Shown one piece after another: positions 12,146 through 18,792 of a stretch of 64,000 nt of DNA (positions are counted from its first letter, which is position 1; every line of letters begins with the position of its first letter). The DNA lies in contig NZ_LT629755.1 in the NCBI RefSeq assembly GCF_900104685.1, positions 620,001 to 684,000 on the forward strand, read 5' to 3'. Position numbers and translations under genes: made by a program. A model generated the notes under the pieces. It saw only the letters and a list, made by a program, of their open reading frames with translations. It made no database searches and was not told the origin of the DNA. The DNA comes from Agromyces flavus (GTDB taxonomy: Bacteria > Actinomycetota > Actinomycetes > Actinomycetales > Microbacteriaceae).

Positions 12146-12222
12146 CGCGGGGTGGAGCAGTTCGGTAGCTCGCTGGGCTCATAACCCAGAGGTCGTAGGT
12201 TCAAATCCTGCCCCCGCAACCA
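12146..12222 (+). tRNA. Initiator tRNA-fMet (anticodon CAT)
   Basis: A 77-nt tRNA with encoded CCA. Its identity as initiator rests on two hallmarks. The acceptor stem CGCGGGG opposes CCCCGCA, leaving the C1 x A72 mismatch needed for formylation. The anticodon stem TGGG-CTCATAA-CCCA carries the three consecutive G:C pairs read by the ribosomal P site. The sequence is close to Escherichia coli tRNA-fMet in the acceptor, D and T arms. The 3' end abuts an inserted IS481-type element, so its original terminator now lies 1.35 kb downstream. Confidence 0.97.
12208..12222 (+). repeat. Left direct repeat flanking the IS (in tRNA 3' end)
   Basis: CTGCCCCCGCAACCA immediately left of the element. The right copy at 13558-13571 is CTGCCCCGCAACCA, identical except for one C fewer. 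This fits a target-site duplication of about 14-15 bp. The left copy retains the five C residues that the tRNA needs. Confidence 0.8.
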
Positions 12223-12227
12223 TGTGA

Positions 12228-12270
12228 TGTGTCGGGACATCGTTTACAGATGTTCCGGGACATCGTTGAC
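12228..12270. repeat. Left-end iterons of the IS (two copies)
   Basis: Two 20-bp units at 12228-12247 and 12251-12270 share GGGACATCGTT and are spaced 23 bp start to start. They are probable transposase-binding sites. The last codons of the transposase are read from the first unit. Confidence 0.7.
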
Positions 12271-13464
12271 ATGAAGCCCCTCCTTCGGGAGGGGCTTCTG
12301 TCGTTTCCGGGGTTGGTAGTCGCGGCCGGGATCGATGATGTGTTCGGCGAGGAGTTCGCCGGTGTGCCTGGCGGTGACGAGGGTTTGCGGTCCGTTCATG
12401 AGCAGGATGACGGGGGTGCCGGCGTGGGCGCGGCCGATGCCGAGGTGTCGGAGTCGGCCGGCGTAGCGGATGGTGATCGTGCCGACGTTGTCGACGGTGT
12501 CGTAGCGGACCCGCCAGTGCTCGTCGCCGTGGCGGAGTCGGGGTTCGGCTTTCGGGAGCGACCGGTACGCCTCGCCGGGGGTGCTTCGGTTGATCGCGCG
12601 ATGCGGGCGGTGCTCGTTGTACAGCTCCTGGAAGTGCTCGAGCTGCTGGTTCAGGGCTTGGATCGTGTCGGCGGGCGGTTGCCGTCGGAGCCACTGCTTG
12701 AGGGTCTGGTGGAAGCGTTCGATTTTGCCCTGGGTTTGCGGGTGCGCGGGTGAGCCGTTCTTCTGGGTGATCCCGAGCCGGCCGAGCAGGGTCTCGAACC
12801 CGTTCGGTCCGCTGCCGCCGCGGGCGAACCGGGTGGTGTAGACCATGCCGTTGTCGGTCAGGGTGGACGCGGGCAGCCCGTGCGTATCCGCGGCGCTGGT
12901 GAAGGTGGCGACCACGATCGGGCCGGTCACGCGGGCGTGCGCGCTGATGCGCACAAGGTATCGGGAGTGATCGTCCAGCCAGGAGATGATCTCCACGTCG
13001 GTGCCGTCGGCGAGGGGCCAGTGGGTGAAGTCGGACTGCCAGGTCTCGTTCGGCTGGACGGCTTCGAACCGGATGATCGAGGACCGCGGCCGTTTCTGCG
13101 GTTGCGGGATCACGACGCCCTCAGCGCGCAGGATCCGCCAGATCGTGGACACGCTCGGGGCCTTCTCACCGGCGCGGGTCAGCCGATCGCGGATCGACTC
13201 GGCGCCGTCATCGAGCCCGGCGCCGGCCAGTTCGGTTCGAAGCGTCAGGATCCGCTGCCGCATGCCTTCGGTGGTGCGCGTCGGTGATCGCCGTGGCTTG
13301 CGGGAGCGTGGCTCGAGCGCGTCGTCGCCGCCTTCCCGGTACCGGTTCGCCAGCGTGCTCGCCCATTGCCGGCTGATCCCGAACCGTGCGGCGGCGTCCG
13401 CGGCGGTCAAGCCGCCGTCGACGATGGCGTGGGCGATGACACGATTCCGGTTCCCTCTCGACAT
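12244..13464 (-). CDS. IS481-family transposase
   Basis: A 406-residue DDE transposase. The N-terminal helix-turn-helix is GLTAADAAARFGISRQWAS (residues 16-35), followed by a second HTH-like region and the rve integrase core. The catalytic triad is visible as WQSDFTHW (D), STLTDNGMVYTTR (D) and HPQTQGKIERFHQTL (E). The C-terminal domain (PHRAINRSTPGEAYRSLP) is typical of IS481. It starts at ATG 13464 inside the right end and stops inside the left-end repeat. It runs opposite to tRNA-fMet, so tRNA read-through is antisense to it. Confidence 0.95.
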   Translation of the reverse strand: MSRGNRNRVIAHAIVDGGLTAADAAARFGISRQWASTLANRYREGGDDALEPRSRKPRRSPTRTTEGMRQRILTLRTELAGAGLDDGAESIRDRLTRAGEKAPSVSTIWRILRAEGVVIPQPQKRPRSSIIRFEAVQPNETWQSDFTHWPLADGTDVEIISWLDDHSRYLVRISAHARVTGPIVVATFTSAADTHGLPASTLTDNGMVYTTRFARGGSGPNGFETLLGRLGITQKNGSPAHPQTQGKIERFHQTLKQWLRRQPPADTIQALNQQLEHFQELYNEHRPHRAINRSTPGEAYRSLPKAEPRLRHGDEHWRVRYDTVDNVGTITIRYAGRLRHLGIGRAHAGTPVILLMNGPQTLVTARHTGELLAEHIIDPGRDYQPRKRQKPLPKEGLHVNDVPEHL

Positions 13465-14350: not shown

Positions 14351-16495
14351 TCAGTCGCGCGAGAGGACCACCAGCCGGCCGGTGGCCCTCGTCATGGCGA
14401 CGTAGCGGTCTACGGCGCCCTCGACGCCCGAGCCGAACGAGTCGGGATCGACGAGCACGACGAGGTCGAACTCGAGTCCCTTGGCGAGTCGGGGGGTGAG
14501 CGATCGGATCCGGGCCGAGCCGGTGAACGTCAGGTCGCCGATCACGCACGCGATCCCCTCGCCCTGCTCGTGCTCGGCGAGCCAGGCGTCGAGGATCGCG
14601 TCGCGCTCGTCGAGTGAGGCGTACGACACGGGCACCCCCGTTCGGCGGATCGAGGTCGGCACGTTGGCGTCGGGCAGTGCGGCGCGGATGATGGGCTCGG
14701 CGGCGAGCATGACCTCCTCGGGAGTGCGGTAATTGATGCCGAGCGTCGCGATCGTGACGCGATCGATGCCGACACATGCGAGTCGCTCGGACCACGATTC
14801 GGCGAAGCCGCGTCGAGCCTGAGCCCGATCGCCGACGATCGTGAGGCTGCGCGACGGACTCCGCCGGAGCAGCATGAGCCACTCGGCATCCGTCAGCTCC
14901 TGCGCCTCGTCGACGACGACGTGTCCGAACGGGCCCGCGAGGAGGTCGACCTCCGTGCGAACGTCCTCGTCCGCGCTGGTGAGTGCGGCCCGCACGTCCT
15001 GCCCTCGGAGCATGGACATCACCGCCATCTCCGAATCGTCGGCCGCGATGAGGTGCTCGAGCACCATCTCACGCTGCTCGCGCTCGTCGGCCAGGGCCGC
15101 CTCGCGCCGGCGCCGCCGGGCCGCGGCATCGGGATCGCCGATCCGCGCCCGAGCCGCATCGAGCAGCGGCAGGTCGGACACCGTCCACGCGCGCGCATGC
15201 GAGCGCTGAAGGAGGTCGACCTCACCCGGCGCGAGGTGCGGCGCACAACGACGCAGGTACTCGGGGACCGACCACAGATCGGCGACCACACCCGCCGGAT
15301 CGAGCAACGGCCACGCCCGCCGGAAGGCGCCCGTGAGTTCGACGCTCTGTGCGAGCGCCCGTTGGAGCAGGTGTGGTGACACGTCATCGTGCCGGTCGCA
15401 GATCAGTCGCAGCAGTTCCTGCCAGACCTCTGCGCGGGCCTCATCGTGCGGCGTCCCGTGCTCAGGCGCTGCGAAGGCCTCCGCCCAGTCCTCCGGTTCC
15501 ACGTCGACCCCGCCCCATTCGGTCTCGACCGTGATGGGCTCCGTGGGCGGCTGCTCGTGATAGGCGACGGCCGCGTCGATCGTCGCCACCATGGCCACCG
15601 TCGACTTCAGTCGTGCGACCACCGGGTCGGTCTCGTGCACGGCGCCGGCGCCTTCGGGCACGAGGTCGGCCAACGTGCAGCTGCGCACGCCCTCCTCGCC
15701 GAGCCCGGGCAGCACGTCGGCGACGTAGTCGAGGTACGGCACGCTCGGACCGACGACGAGGACGCCTCCGCGCCGGTGCGCGAGCCGTGGGTCCGCGTAG
15801 AGCAGGTACGCGGCGCGGTGCAGGGCCACGACGGTCTTGCCGGTTCCCGGGCCGCCGTCCACCACCAGCGCGCCGCGCGAACCGGCGCGGATGATCGCGT
15901 CCTGGTCGGCCTGGATGGTGCCCAGCACGTCGCGCATCCGTGCCGATCGGCTCTCGCCGAGGCTCGCGATGAACGCCGACTGGTCGTCGAGCGCCGCGGC
16001 GTGCCCGCGCAGCTCGTCCTCGGTGAACGCCTCGTCCCAGTAGTCCGTCACGCGCCCGCGCGTCCAGCGGTAGCGGCGGCGATGGACGAGGCCCCTCGGG
16101 TCGGCGTGCGTGGCCGCGAAGAAGGGCTCGGCGGCAGGGGAACGCCAGTCCACGAGCAGTCGCCGGCCCGAGTCATCCGTCAGCCCGAACCGCCCGATGT
16201 AGATCGGCTCGTGGTGCTGCGCGTCGACGATGTGGCCGAGGCACAGGTCCAGTCCGAACCGGCGCAGGGTGCGCAGGCGGGCGGTCAGCCGGTGCACCTC
16301 GAGATCGCGGTCGAGCGCGGACTGCCCGCCTCCAGTGCGCTGTCGGCGGGCATCGTCGAGGCGACCGGACACGTCGGCGGCGAGTTCGTCGAGCCGCCCG
16401 GCGATGGCGGCGAAGTGCCGCTCGTCGTCGGCGATCAGGGCGGGGTCGGCCTTGTGGGCGAGGCGGTCGGGAAGGGCGAAGGCGGTGACGGTCAG
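14351..16495 (-). CDS. helR: HelR/HelD-type RNA polymerase recycling ATPase
   Basis: About 714 residues, resembling HelD/HelR proteins. These ATPases push into RNA polymerase, release stalled complexes and, in Streptomyces, displace rifamycins from the enzyme. The N-terminal helices (residues 10-100) precede the ATPase. Motifs are Walker A DGGPGTGKTVVAL, Walker B VVVDEAQELTDAEW, GDRAQARRGF, LGINYRTPEEV, LAKGLEFDLVVL and YVAMTRATGRLVVL. The frame has no ATG or GTG where homologues begin. The likely start is CTG 16495, with GAGGAG 5 nt upstream; a TTG further upstream is possible. A rifamycin-associated element lies 55 bp ahead, which supports the HelR assignment and rifamycin-induced expression. 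Confidence 0.85.
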   Translation of the reverse strand: MTVTAFALPDRLAHKADPALIADDERHFAAIAGRLDELAADVSGRLDDARRQRTGGGQSALDRDLEVHRLTARLRTLRRFGLDLCLGHIVDAQHHEPIYIGRFGLTDDSGRRLLVDWRSPAAEPFFAATHADPRGLVHRRRYRWTRGRVTDYWDEAFTEDELRGHAAALDDQSAFIASLGESRSARMRDVLGTIQADQDAIIRAGSRGALVVDGGPGTGKTVVALHRAAYLLYADPRLAHRRGGVLVVGPSVPYLDYVADVLPGLGEEGVRSCTLADLVPEGAGAVHETDPVVARLKSTVAMVATIDAAVAYHEQPPTEPITVETEWGGVDVEPEDWAEAFAAPEHGTPHDEARAEVWQELLRLICDRHDDVSPHLLQRALAQSVELTGAFRRAWPLLDPAGVVADLWSVPEYLRRCAPHLAPGEVDLLQRSHARAWTVSDLPLLDAARARIGDPDAAARRRRREAALADEREQREMVLEHLIAADDSEMAVMSMLRGQDVRAALTSADEDVRTEVDLLAGPFGHVVVDEAQELTDAEWLMLLRRSPSRSLTIVGDRAQARRGFAESWSERLACVGIDRVTIATLGINYRTPEEVMLAAEPIIRAALPDANVPTSIRRTGVPVSYASLDERDAILDAWLAEHEQGEGIACVIGDLTFTGSARIRSLTPRLAKGLEFDLVVLVDPDSFGSGVEGAVDRYVAMTRATGRLVVLSRD

Positions 16496-16550
16496 GAGAA
16501 CTCCTCGAGCAGGGAATCGCAGGTCGGCCGCCCATTCTGCGCCCTCACCG

Positions 16551-16569
16551 GGTGCTTGCGGCAAGCCCC
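16551..16569 (-). promoter_or_regulatory. Rifamycin-associated element (RAE) upstream of helR
   Basis: The plus strand reads GGTGCTTGCGGCAAGCCCC, one base away from a perfect 19-bp inverted repeat of the form GGGGCTTGCGGCAAGCCCC. As I recall it, that is the element found ahead of rifamycin-inducible resistance genes in actinomycetes. On the minus strand it contains TTGCCG, which could serve as a -35, with CAGAAT 19 bp further on as a weak -10. Confidence 0.85.
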
Positions 16570-16599
16570 CGGTCCGCCGGTAGACTGGAAATGCAGACG

Positions 16600-16633
16600 G
16601 GAAGGCCCCGGTCCGATCGGACCGGGGCCTTCC
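16600..16633 (-). terminator. Hairpin terminator after the secreted metalloprotease gene
   Basis: A perfect self-complementary stretch (GGAAGGCCCCGGTCC, centre GATC, and its complement) lies 15 bp after the stop at 16648. It insulates the helR promoter from upstream transcription. Confidence 0.7.
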
Positions 16634-16647
16634 GTCGTGCGGGCGGG

Positions 16648-18792
16648 TCAGCCCTTCTTGCCGTTGCCGGTGTTCGTGTTGGTGACGGTCAGCGTGTATC
16701 CCGCATCGAGCGTGTCCAGGTCGCCCGTGGGCAGGTTGGACACGAGCACCGCGAAGTCGCGCTTCGAGCCGTTCGCGCATCGCGTGTCGAGGGCGAGCGT
16801 GATCTCGTCCTGCTCGAGGCGGTACACGTAGTTCCCGGCCTCGTCGACGATCTCGAAGTCGCTCTCCACGCCCGGCGTGAGGTCGCAGCTCGAGATGATC
16901 TGCACGGTCCAGTTGTTGTCCTGGAGGCCGGTCGTCTCGAACCACTCACCCTCGTCGGACGACAGCGTCGCGGCCGCACCGTCGACCATCACGTCGTCGA
17001 CGAACCATCCGGTGTCGAGGTACGCCGCGTCGGTCGAGTAGCGGAACTGCACGTCGGTCGTGCCCTCAGGCAGCTGCGCGGTGAGGTGGACGTACTCGGG
17101 CTCGTCGACGAAGTACTCGCCGCCCGAGGTGCCGGTCAGGCCGTTCCCCTCCTCGTTGTTCGCGTGGGGGTCGTCGTCGGTCGTGACCGTCGCGCCCGAG
17201 TCGTCGACGAGCGGCACGGTGACCCACTCGCCGTCGACGAGCGCCTCGACGAAGCCGTAGTCCCAGCCCTCCTCGATGAAGTACCAGGTCCAGAAGTCGA
17301 GCGTCTCGACGTCGCCGTCGGTCTCCACGTCGAGGACGTGGTCGGACTGGCTCTCGTACCCGGCGTACCAGTGCGTGTCGCCGCTGTGCGGGGCGACCTG
17401 CGTGGTCGGCTCGCCGGCGAACGACAGCTCGACCGTCGGTCCGGGGTTGCGGAACCGCTCGACCTGGATGCCGTAGGGGACTGCCACGCCGCTCTGCCCG
17501 TTCGTGCGGCGGTCCCACTTGGCGGCGGGCTGCGCGCCTCGGTTGTCGCCGCGGCCGCCCCAGAACTGGTCGTCGGCGATGTCCATCGTCCAGCTCGTGT
17601 CCTTCGGGTCGCCGAAGTTCACGGCCTTGATGTCGAAGACGTCGGAGTCTTCATCGTCGAGGTAGACCGCCACGGCCCAGTCGCGGTAGAGCTCCTCGAC
17701 CGAGCGAAGGTCGGCGCCCGTCTCGGCGTTGAATGCGTCGATCGCCGCCTGCACGCCCTCCATGCCGTTCAGCTCGTTCTCGAAGATGAGCTTGATCAGC
17801 AGGTCGCCGCCGGCGCCGTCGTACTCCTTGTCGGGGGTGTACGTCCCGTCGCCGTTGCCGCCGGCCTGCTCCCAGAGGTACTGGAAGAAGGTGTAGGCCG
17901 CGCCGTAGTTCTGCAAGCCGCCACCCCATCGGGTGAGCGAGGTGTCGGCGTAGAACACCTGATGGTAGGTCAGGTGCGATCCGCCGACGTCGTAGCCGTT
18001 GAGGAACACCGCGAAGTCGGCGAGACCCTCGTCGACCCAGCTGAGCTCGCCCGGGTCGCTGTAGTTGTGCAGCAGGTGCTCGAGCTCGTGCGCGATCACG
18101 CCTTCGTAGAGGGTGGGCGCATCGTTGGACGGGTCGTCGTCGTTCCACTCCGAGTCCGCGGGTCCGACCCGGTTCGCCCAGTCGAACGCGTCGATGACGA
18201 TCACGTTCATGCTCGAGGAGTCGATGAACTCCGGCGCGAAGTAGCCGGCCGTGTAGGTGGTCTCGGCGCAGTCGTAGTAGTTGGCGTCCTGCACGTTGTA
18301 GACGACCATGACGAGCGAGTCGCTCTCGGGGTGCTCAGGATCGGCCGCATCCATGGGGCCGAAGTGCTCCTCGTCGACCGCGACGATCTGGTTCGCGAGC
18401 TGGTCGCCCATGTAGTCGATCTGTTCCTGCGTGATGGTGAAGTCCGCGACATCGCGGTCTTCGCAGGGCACGAACTCATCGTCGGGGTTGTGGTCGAACG
18501 CCGGGTCGAGGCTGTCGACGCCCTCGGGCGCGCTGCCGTCGAGCGGCGTGTCCTCGGGCACGTAGATATAGACCGGCGTACCGTCCGGCGTCTCGCCGGC
18601 GTACACCCGGGTGAAGTCCTGCTCGTACGTGCCGCCGGCCTCGCTGTCGTTGATCGGCAGCGTGATCGTTTCTTCGCCGGGCAGGTCACCTCCGTGACTG
18701 GCCGCGGCCGGTGTGGCGGATGCAACGGCGATCGTGATCGCGGCGGCGCCCACGGCGACGGCGCCCATGACGCCGCGTGGTGTTCGGAGCAC
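16648..18792 (-). CDS. Secreted zinc metalloprotease (gluzincin, immune-inhibitor-A-like)
   Basis: A 714-residue exported protein. The signal peptide is at residues 1-31 (GAVAVGAAAITIAVASATPA, then AAA-SHG). The zinc site is VIAHELEHLLHNYSD, with the third ligand in SWVDEGLADFA about 20 residues later, the HExxH...E arrangement of gluzincins. VIVIDAFDWANRVGP precedes it. The C-terminal half holds beta-sandwich domains of the immune-inhibitor-A type (HWYAGYESQSDHVLD, FDFWTWYFIEEGWDYGF-like). No sortase motif is visible, so it should be released. GTG 18792 has AGGGG about 10 nt upstream. It probably digests extracellular protein for nutrition. Confidence 0.8.
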   Translation of the reverse strand: MLRTPRGVMGAVAVGAAAITIAVASATPAAASHGGDLPGEETITLPINDSEAGGTYEQDFTRVYAGETPDGTPVYIYVPEDTPLDGSAPEGVDSLDPAFDHNPDDEFVPCEDRDVADFTITQEQIDYMGDQLANQIVAVDEEHFGPMDAADPEHPESDSLVMVVYNVQDANYYDCAETTYTAGYFAPEFIDSSSMNVIVIDAFDWANRVGPADSEWNDDDPSNDAPTLYEGVIAHELEHLLHNYSDPGELSWVDEGLADFAVFLNGYDVGGSHLTYHQVFYADTSLTRWGGGLQNYGAAYTFFQYLWEQAGGNGDGTYTPDKEYDGAGGDLLIKLIFENELNGMEGVQAAIDAFNAETGADLRSVEELYRDWAVAVYLDDEDSDVFDIKAVNFGDPKDTSWTMDIADDQFWGGRGDNRGAQPAAKWDRRTNGQSGVAVPYGIQVERFRNPGPTVELSFAGEPTTQVAPHSGDTHWYAGYESQSDHVLDVETDGDVETLDFWTWYFIEEGWDYGFVEALVDGEWVTVPLVDDSGATVTTDDDPHANNEEGNGLTGTSGGEYFVDEPEYVHLTAQLPEGTTDVQFRYSTDAAYLDTGWFVDDVMVDGAAATLSSDEGEWFETTGLQDNNWTVQIISSCDLTPGVESDFEIVDEAGNYVYRLEQDEITLALDTRCANGSKRDFAVLVSNLPTGDLDTLDAGYTLTVTNTNTGNGKKG

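Follow-up and report, generated by a model that had tools for sequence, protein, structure and literature searches.

A rifamycin-associated element upstream of helR in Agromyces flavus as the putative core of a conserved bidirectional promoter module

The 64,000-nucleotide stretch of DNA analysed here (the window; NCBI RefSeq assembly GCF_900104685.1, contig NZ_LT629755.1, positions 620,001 to 684,000) comes from the soil actinomycete Agromyces flavus and contains a gene, helR, whose product is expected to free RNA polymerase from rifamycin, together with an upstream 19-bp dyad of the rifamycin-associated element (RAE) type. We regard it as fairly probable that this RAE is genuine and forms the core of a bidirectional promoter module controlling helR, whereby a promoter facing away from the gene (D) would act by default and rifamycin would shift the balance to the promoter reading into it (H). 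In the sequences compared, the anatomy of this module is conserved with an exact spacing, resistance genes lie on its H side and hairpins are in excess on its D side. Taken by itself, the RAE-helR pair of the window is a correct, ordinary additional member of the known RAE-helR arrangement, and an inducible rifamycin tolerance of the host is the natural prediction from it.

An earlier note on this DNA had described a 19-mer at 16551-16569 that is one base off a perfect 19-bp dyad, which was confirmed: the unstranded site is GGTGCTTGCGGCAAGCCCC (GGGGCTTGCCGCAAGCACC when read toward helR), and its arms, compared as GGTGCTTGC and GGGGCTTGC (the right arm reverse-complemented), are unlike at a single base. 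Within the window, a search allowing up to three mismatches to GGGGCTTGCNGCAAGCCCC gave one match, with 0.02 expected. The note had also proposed a scan of the whole genome for further copies. In its 3,692,308 bases the window RAE was the only site with fewer than three mismatches; the next best were four places with three mismatches each, compared with 15 for the reversed-pattern control, and thus the genome holds no second close copy and is not full of such 19-mers. For the phylum-wide search the pattern GGGNCTTGCSGCAAGNCCC was used, which we take to be the RAE consensus and which was supported in this analysis by the genes lying downstream of its matches.

Two -10-like elements, not mentioned in the earlier note, flank the RAE of the window, both at a distance of 11 bp. 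On the helR side, CAGAAT (16534..16539, minus strand) is assigned to promoter H, with the helR transcript start predicted from the spacing at 16527..16529 (minus strand). On the opposite side, TAGACT (16581..16586, plus strand) faces away from helR and is assigned to the divergent promoter D. Its predicted start, 16593 (plus strand), was placed at position 23 from the RAE, where a conserved G stands and where many strict hairpins begin; this position is G in all 45 Agromyces loci and in 96% of the oriented phylum sites described below. The RAE itself supplies TTGCSG at 19 bp from each -10 element, that is, the -35 region of both H and D, and in the window its TTGCCG, 19 bp from CAGAAT, falls within the -35 region of the sense promoter. 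The predicted starts of H and D would accordingly stand back to back, about 65 bp apart. A sigma-70 consensus scan around the RAE found no promoter, as is expected for -35 elements that are non-consensus.

The arrangement was followed through 60 genomes of the genus, including that of A. flavus itself, among which a HelR protein match was present in 50 and absent from 10. The loci examined comprised 45 HelR-type genes (L006-L050) in 44 genomes, leaving out a C-terminal fragment in G003, and eight of 11 HelD paralogs with 37-40% identity, leaving out those of G005, G040 and G046. The RAE was the best match in the 360-base stretch before each of the 45 HelR-type loci, with 0-4 mismatches to GGGGCTTGCNGCAAGNCCC, and all of them have the core CTTGCSGCAAG. 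None of the eight paralogs had an RAE in its 1.7-kb slice, where the core was absent and the best match had at least seven mismatches. At offset 11 on the H side, NANNNT occurred in 45/45 loci, mostly as CAGAAT, CATACT or CACAAT; on the other strand of the D side it occurred at the same offset in 44/45, mostly as TATCCT, TAAACT or TAGACT, commonly followed by GRAANTG, and the only exception (L048) was one base off. When the direction of the gene was used to orient the loci, D had T as its first -10 base in 42/45 loci and H in 0/45. Four of the 45 RAEs have CGG or GGG in place of the outer CCC on the helR side, the rest being kept.

A second set was chosen on the RAE alone, by exact matches to GGGNCTTGCSGCAAGNCCC. 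Among 396 genomes of the phylum, 29 matched at 39 places, and 29 of these places were taken as loci; a scan of named genomes found at least 119 stretches, of which 80 were taken. The combined total is 110 sites, one of which (L083) had already entered the genus set as L017. NANNNT was present at offset 11 on 213 of the 220 sides, as opposed to two at offset 10 and one at offset 12; the next highest count, 68 at offset 17, is due to a conserved GAGAGT directly after the D element. At 107 of the 110 sites both sides had their -10 element within one base, the three exceptions being euryarchaeal, Nitrospirae and Paraburkholderia records. Taking T at the first -10 position as the mark of D oriented 106 of these 107 sites, and the unoriented one (L169) has its D element one base nearer to the RAE. 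The first base of the H element was C in 92% of the oriented sites, and the two forms read cAnaaT on H, the resistance-gene side, and TAnnnT on D. There was no identical pair among the 106 oriented modules, and when the 105 full-length ones were thinned to 82 with less than 70% mutual identity, the -10 element was still found in 81/82 for H and 82/82 for D. Information content (uncorrected for relatedness) was raised for about 60 bp on either side of the RAE before it fell to background, which suggests an element of about 140 bp rather than 19 bp.

In a sample of the family with one RAE mismatch allowed, 23 of 120 genomes matched, and 22 of the 24 places outside the own genome were taken as loci. 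Both -10 elements were present at 18 of these 22 sites, and the four failures were all mismatched inside the CTTGC/GCAAG core. The H side of 17 of the 18 complete sites had helR or rox, and one (L072) had neither; an extra weak rox-like match (31% identity) was seen on the D side of L067. With the outer RAE bases left free, the two-sided pattern occurred in 183 of 394 genomes of the class, with none for the reversed control among the matches listed.

The module has a polarity with respect to its neighbours. Genes on the H side were assigned by their best tblastn match (E ≤1e-5) to seven representatives, namely the window HelR and six proteins from the sites. On the right strand of the 106 oriented sites these were helR (36), rox (40, of which four matched a distant rox better and 36 did not), rph (11), arr (10), rgt-like (7) and a major facilitator superfamily (MFS) transporter that is its own representative (1), together 105 of the 106, while the slice of the remaining site (L146) was too short. 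The rox, rph and arr representatives scored above the curated NCBIfam cut-offs; the rgt-like (408-548 bits, cut-off 800) and distant rox (340 bits, cut-off 800) proteins and the MFS gene were below theirs. Four of the 36 phylum helR genes were 37-39% identical, and one of these, L130, exceeded the cut-off of HelR_2 as well as that of mycobacterial HelD. On the D side, 103/106 sites had none of these resistance genes, the exceptions being a helR-like gene at L150 and MFS-like genes at L173 and L177. The direction of the D-side neighbour, estimated from coding bias, was toward the RAE in 49 cases, away from it in 43 and unclear in six, with eight slices too short. Since there is no consistent gene on this side and the neighbours are oriented both ways, D is not the promoter of any particular gene.

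Two of these sites deserve separate mention. In Pseudonocardia xinjiangensis (L150), H faces an rgt-like gene, whereas the D side has a HelR-like gene (44% identity) that is read away from the RAE, so that D might serve a resistance gene there. In Actinoplanes aureus (L127, 154-1794, plus strand), the gene downstream of a complete RAE module is of the MFS drug-efflux-like kind, a candidate rifamycin exporter, for which the nearest models are of the OtrB, Tcr3 and EmrB types, all below cut-off.

On the D side of the window lies a hairpin (16600..16633, plus strand) of 15 perfect pairs with the loop GATC, which would stand close to the 5' end of the D RNA. Folding of the 48 nt that begin at 16593 gave -41.8 kcal/mol (z -7.1). 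The earlier note had taken it for an insulating terminator. The hairpin is real, but it need not be a mere insulator, as it sits just after the predicted start of D, and it may also end the upstream gene. The D-side consensus is TAnnTT-GAGAGTGGCAAGGAG, often followed from the predicted +1 (position 23) by a hairpin like GGCAAGGAG-N4..8-CTCCTTGCC. Perfect stems of at least 7 near the D start were found in 33/105 phylum sites, with 0.95 expected from dinucleotide shuffles, and in 22/45 Agromyces loci, with 0.35 expected. The same test on the H side gave 2/106 versus 1.25 and 1/45 versus 0.35, respectively, and strict stems of at least 6 there numbered 9/106 versus 4.0. Of the strict D-side hairpins, with left arms sought in a 12-base range, 35/55 started at the predicted +1. 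They were present at 7/11 rph, 3/7 rgt, 12/35 rox, 9/36 helR and 1/10 arr sites, at none of the four distant rox sites and at the single MFS site. Strict hairpins accompanied neighbours pointing away from the RAE (9/43 in the phylum, 14/25 in Agromyces) as well as toward it (18/49 and 8/20), and therefore terminating the upstream gene may be a part of their function. The predicted D RNA had no Rfam match in the seven loci tried.

Small stems were also counted at the start of the helR-side RNA, where 4-bp stems occurred in 25/106 phylum sites versus 16.7 and in 24/45 Agromyces loci versus 9.7 expected from mononucleotide shuffles, a moderate excess in the latter. The possibility that the RAE itself acts as an RNA hairpin was considered and rejected. 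Its only variable arm pair in the phylum, 4/16, was complementary in 27/106 sites, with 19.6 expected if the two positions were independent, and in Agromyces pair 4/16 was complementary in 20/45 loci versus 17.7 and pair 3/17 in 26 versus 26.0. Because the excess is slight at most, the RAE was treated as a DNA element.

Outside actinobacterial chromosomes, one complete module with arr was found in an 8-kb slice of a metagenome-assembled genome labelled Xanthomonadaceae (L185, 7541-7706), where the D side has a hairpin of nine pairs with a T-run. One gene of this slice has its closest named relatives among Luteimonas proteins (75% identity), which makes the label believable, and the host of this single case appears to be gammaproteobacterial. 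A Chloroflexi metagenome-assembled genome (L172) has a site with rph, and no claim is made from it. The two-sided pattern was present in 36 plasmid records, all from actinobacterial genera, and was not found in phage records. Fourteen two-sided matches in viral_contigs (GC 36-56%) were considered as phage-borne modules and dismissed as chance, since none has GGG arms and none of the stretches matched the seven representative resistance proteins.

No report of a divergent promoter at an RAE was found in the literature searched, and to that extent the module is undescribed. The primary papers on the RAE and HelR (Spanogiannopoulos 2014, Surette 2022 and Hurst-Hess 2022) may already contain one. 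What is not new is the occurrence of RAE-helR outside Streptomyces, which the earlier note had singled out: PMC8655204 already counts two Microbacterium strains in a potential helR group, along with Nonomuraea, Nocardia, Rhodococcus and mycobacteria, and places the helD genes with an upstream RAE in two sub-branches. The genes that rifampicin induces most in Mycobacterium smegmatis include rox, MSMEG_2174 (a helD gene) and two arr genes (PMC6529629). According to PMC10719064, promoter 2 of the M. smegmatis helD has a -35 region overlapped by the RAE, and removing half of the RAE, with this -35 region, abolishes the induction. The regulator was left unknown there, and PMC12802891 states that the mechanism and the regulator of the RAE are still to be elucidated. 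The portions available of PMC10194278, PMC13001253, PMC12114206 and PMC13246000 had nothing further on a second promoter at the RAE.

The element of the window thus resembles the known RAE in being a 19-bp dyad that lies upstream of a rifamycin-resistance gene and overlaps the sense -35 region. It differs in that the literature, so far as these partial sources go, presents a 19-bp element with sense promoters only, whereas here the dyad sits at the centre of some 140 bp of module that include a conserved, predicted divergent promoter, often with a hairpin at its start. A close parallel is the rifampicin alarm helD/pps of Bacillus subtilis (PMC12802891), in which the sense promoter of a HelD gene is likewise opposed by a better-looking promoter; in B. 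subtilis, however, the pair is convergent with starts 39 bp apart, while the Agromyces pair is predicted to be divergent, at about 65 bp, with a shared upstream element.

In the mechanism we propose, D, whose -10 element (TAnnnT) is nearer to consensus, would fire away from the resistance gene and produce a short RNA that is predicted to begin with a strict hairpin in about a third to half of the members. The weaker-looking H (cAnaaT) would read into helR, and the HelR made would then eject rifamycin from RNA polymerase. As both promoters place the same 19 bp at -35, two holoenzymes should not fit, and presumably only H or D would be usable at a time. D would be the default and hold H low, until rifamycin shifted the balance from D to H. 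That this balance is the switch through which rifamycin is read is the reading we favour, at a little under even odds. A bolder version, which we find rather unlikely, is that the RAE is no operator for a drug-binding regulator and instead acts as a portable, regulator-free sensor of RNA polymerase, whereby D, firing constantly and making a short self-terminating RNA, would report a healthy polymerase and shut H until rifamycin slowed D. If true, the module would be an actinobacterial counterpart of the convergent alarm of B. subtilis with a different geometry, and the use of a single cis-element by six unrelated resistance genes, as well as its possible movement between phyla, would be explained. 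In any case, the conserved predicted divergent promoter offers concrete objects for the question of RAE sensing, namely a start site, a -10 element and a hairpin, and the two-sided pattern is a sharper search tool than the 19-mer alone, which may find new rifamycin-resistance genes such as that of the MFS transporter in A. aureus.

Several observations weigh against a role of D. Its start is a prediction from sequence. In M. smegmatis, a second promoter in the sense direction starts about 20 bp upstream of the RAE, where D is placed, and PMC10719064, in its accessible part, mentions no opposite start at this RAE; the half-RAE deletion in the same source also took out the -35 region. When the two opposed promoters of B. 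subtilis were moved to overlap, induction was abolished (PMC12802891), which argues against plain occlusion, because H should be blocked by a polymerase that the drug has arrested on D. As a -35 element, TTGCSG at 19 bp is poor, and a dyad with so many near-fixed bases looks like a protein site. The hairpins are an uneven feature as well: 72/105 phylum sites and 23/45 Agromyces loci have no perfect stem of at least 7 at the D start, and that of the window begins about 7 nt past the predicted +1 and has no T-run on either side. Under a looser rule, used with no control, stems of at least 8 occurred in 71/105 sites, and only 22/71 of these had at least four T in the next eight bases. In the phylum, hairpins are also commoner where the neighbour points toward the RAE (18/49 versus 9/43).

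The strongest alternative is a classical operator: H would be switched by an unknown regulator, widely distributed among the hosts, that binds to the dyad of the RAE, and D would be a second promoter of this operator, irrelevant to sensing. We would give it a substantial minority chance. The 19-bp dyad with its near-fixed bases fits this explanation, the rigid spacing suits a protein that touches the polymerase, the weak -35 formed by TTGCSG at 19 bp agrees with it, and an unknown factor is considered in both PMC10719064 and PMC12802891. It accounts less well for the D element, which has no consistent gene and yet keeps its -10 as strictly as H does, as a bystander need not. The four Agromyces RAEs with the outer CCC altered to CGG or GGG have kept the rest, and the complete arr module in the Xanthomonadaceae-labelled genome, albeit one case, stands where an actinobacterial regulator is unexpected.

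It is improbable, in our view, that the signal is the RNA transcribed from D, as a short-lived hairpin RNA which only drug-free polymerase makes, which represses H in cis or in trans and whose loss under rifamycin releases H. The strict hairpins above the shuffled expectation, their frequent start at the predicted +1 (35/55) and stem letters that differ from site to site would agree with it. However, at least half of the sites lack a perfect stem of 7 at the D start, the stem sequences vary between genera with no shared target noticed, and the seven loci tried in Rfam gave no match. Even less probable is that the helR of the window is not rifamycin-inducible and its RAE a relic, as the base off the dyad and the CTG start codon might suggest; the gene is intact, as are its two -10 elements and their spacing, and the copies in other Agromyces have been kept. 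The least credible alternative is that the hairpin does no more than terminate the upstream gene and TAGACT arose by chance, for although the upstream reading frame of the window (16648-18792, minus strand) points toward the RAE, 15 perfect pairs make a good terminator and hairpins are somewhat commoner phylum-wide with neighbours toward the RAE, an opposite -10 element stands at the same offset in 44/45 Agromyces loci and nearly all phylum RAE sites, and hairpins also occur where the neighbour points away.

The gene behind promoter H, helR (14351..16495, minus strand), encodes a class II HelD/HelR motor ATPase of 714 amino acids that scored 1173 bits with the curated NCBIfam model NF041254 (cut-off 750). 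Its residues 26-714 could be aligned with the solved structure of M. smegmatis HelD (6yxu_H), and the alignment passes through the primary-channel loop, with an acidic DD kept at its tip. In M. smegmatis HelD this loop comprises residues 448-503 (PMC7749160). The full-length motor, the DWR motif, the GGPGTGKT Walker A and the acidic-tip loop are all as in known HelR and class II HelD proteins (NF041254; 6yxu); what differs is the start codon, most likely CTG (16493-16495, minus strand) behind the Shine-Dalgarno sequence GAGGAG (16501..16506, minus strand), a pattern that recurs in other Agromyces loci. With the start at CTG 16495, the distance of 55 bp between the RAE and a HelR-type gene given in the earlier note holds, as does the gene's identity.

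In 19/45 Agromyces helR loci no in-frame ATG, GTG or TTG occurs from the predicted start of the transcript to the fifth codon after the point where the alignment starts, and CTG starts thus seem common in the helR of this genus. At L062, L071, L078 and other loci of the same family, the helR-side -10 element GAGAAT is followed by GTGAC within about 15 nt, so that their helR mRNAs may be nearly leaderless. One Agromyces genome (G010) has two HelR-type genes (L023 and L036), each with its own RAE. In G025, G029, G035, G037 and G057 the HelR matches are split or contain stops, with damage, insertions and sequencing error not distinguished. Finally, the tRNA-Met at 12146-12222 of the window adjoins a transposase-like gene with an integrase core (rve; 12244-13464), which makes it a possible insertion site.

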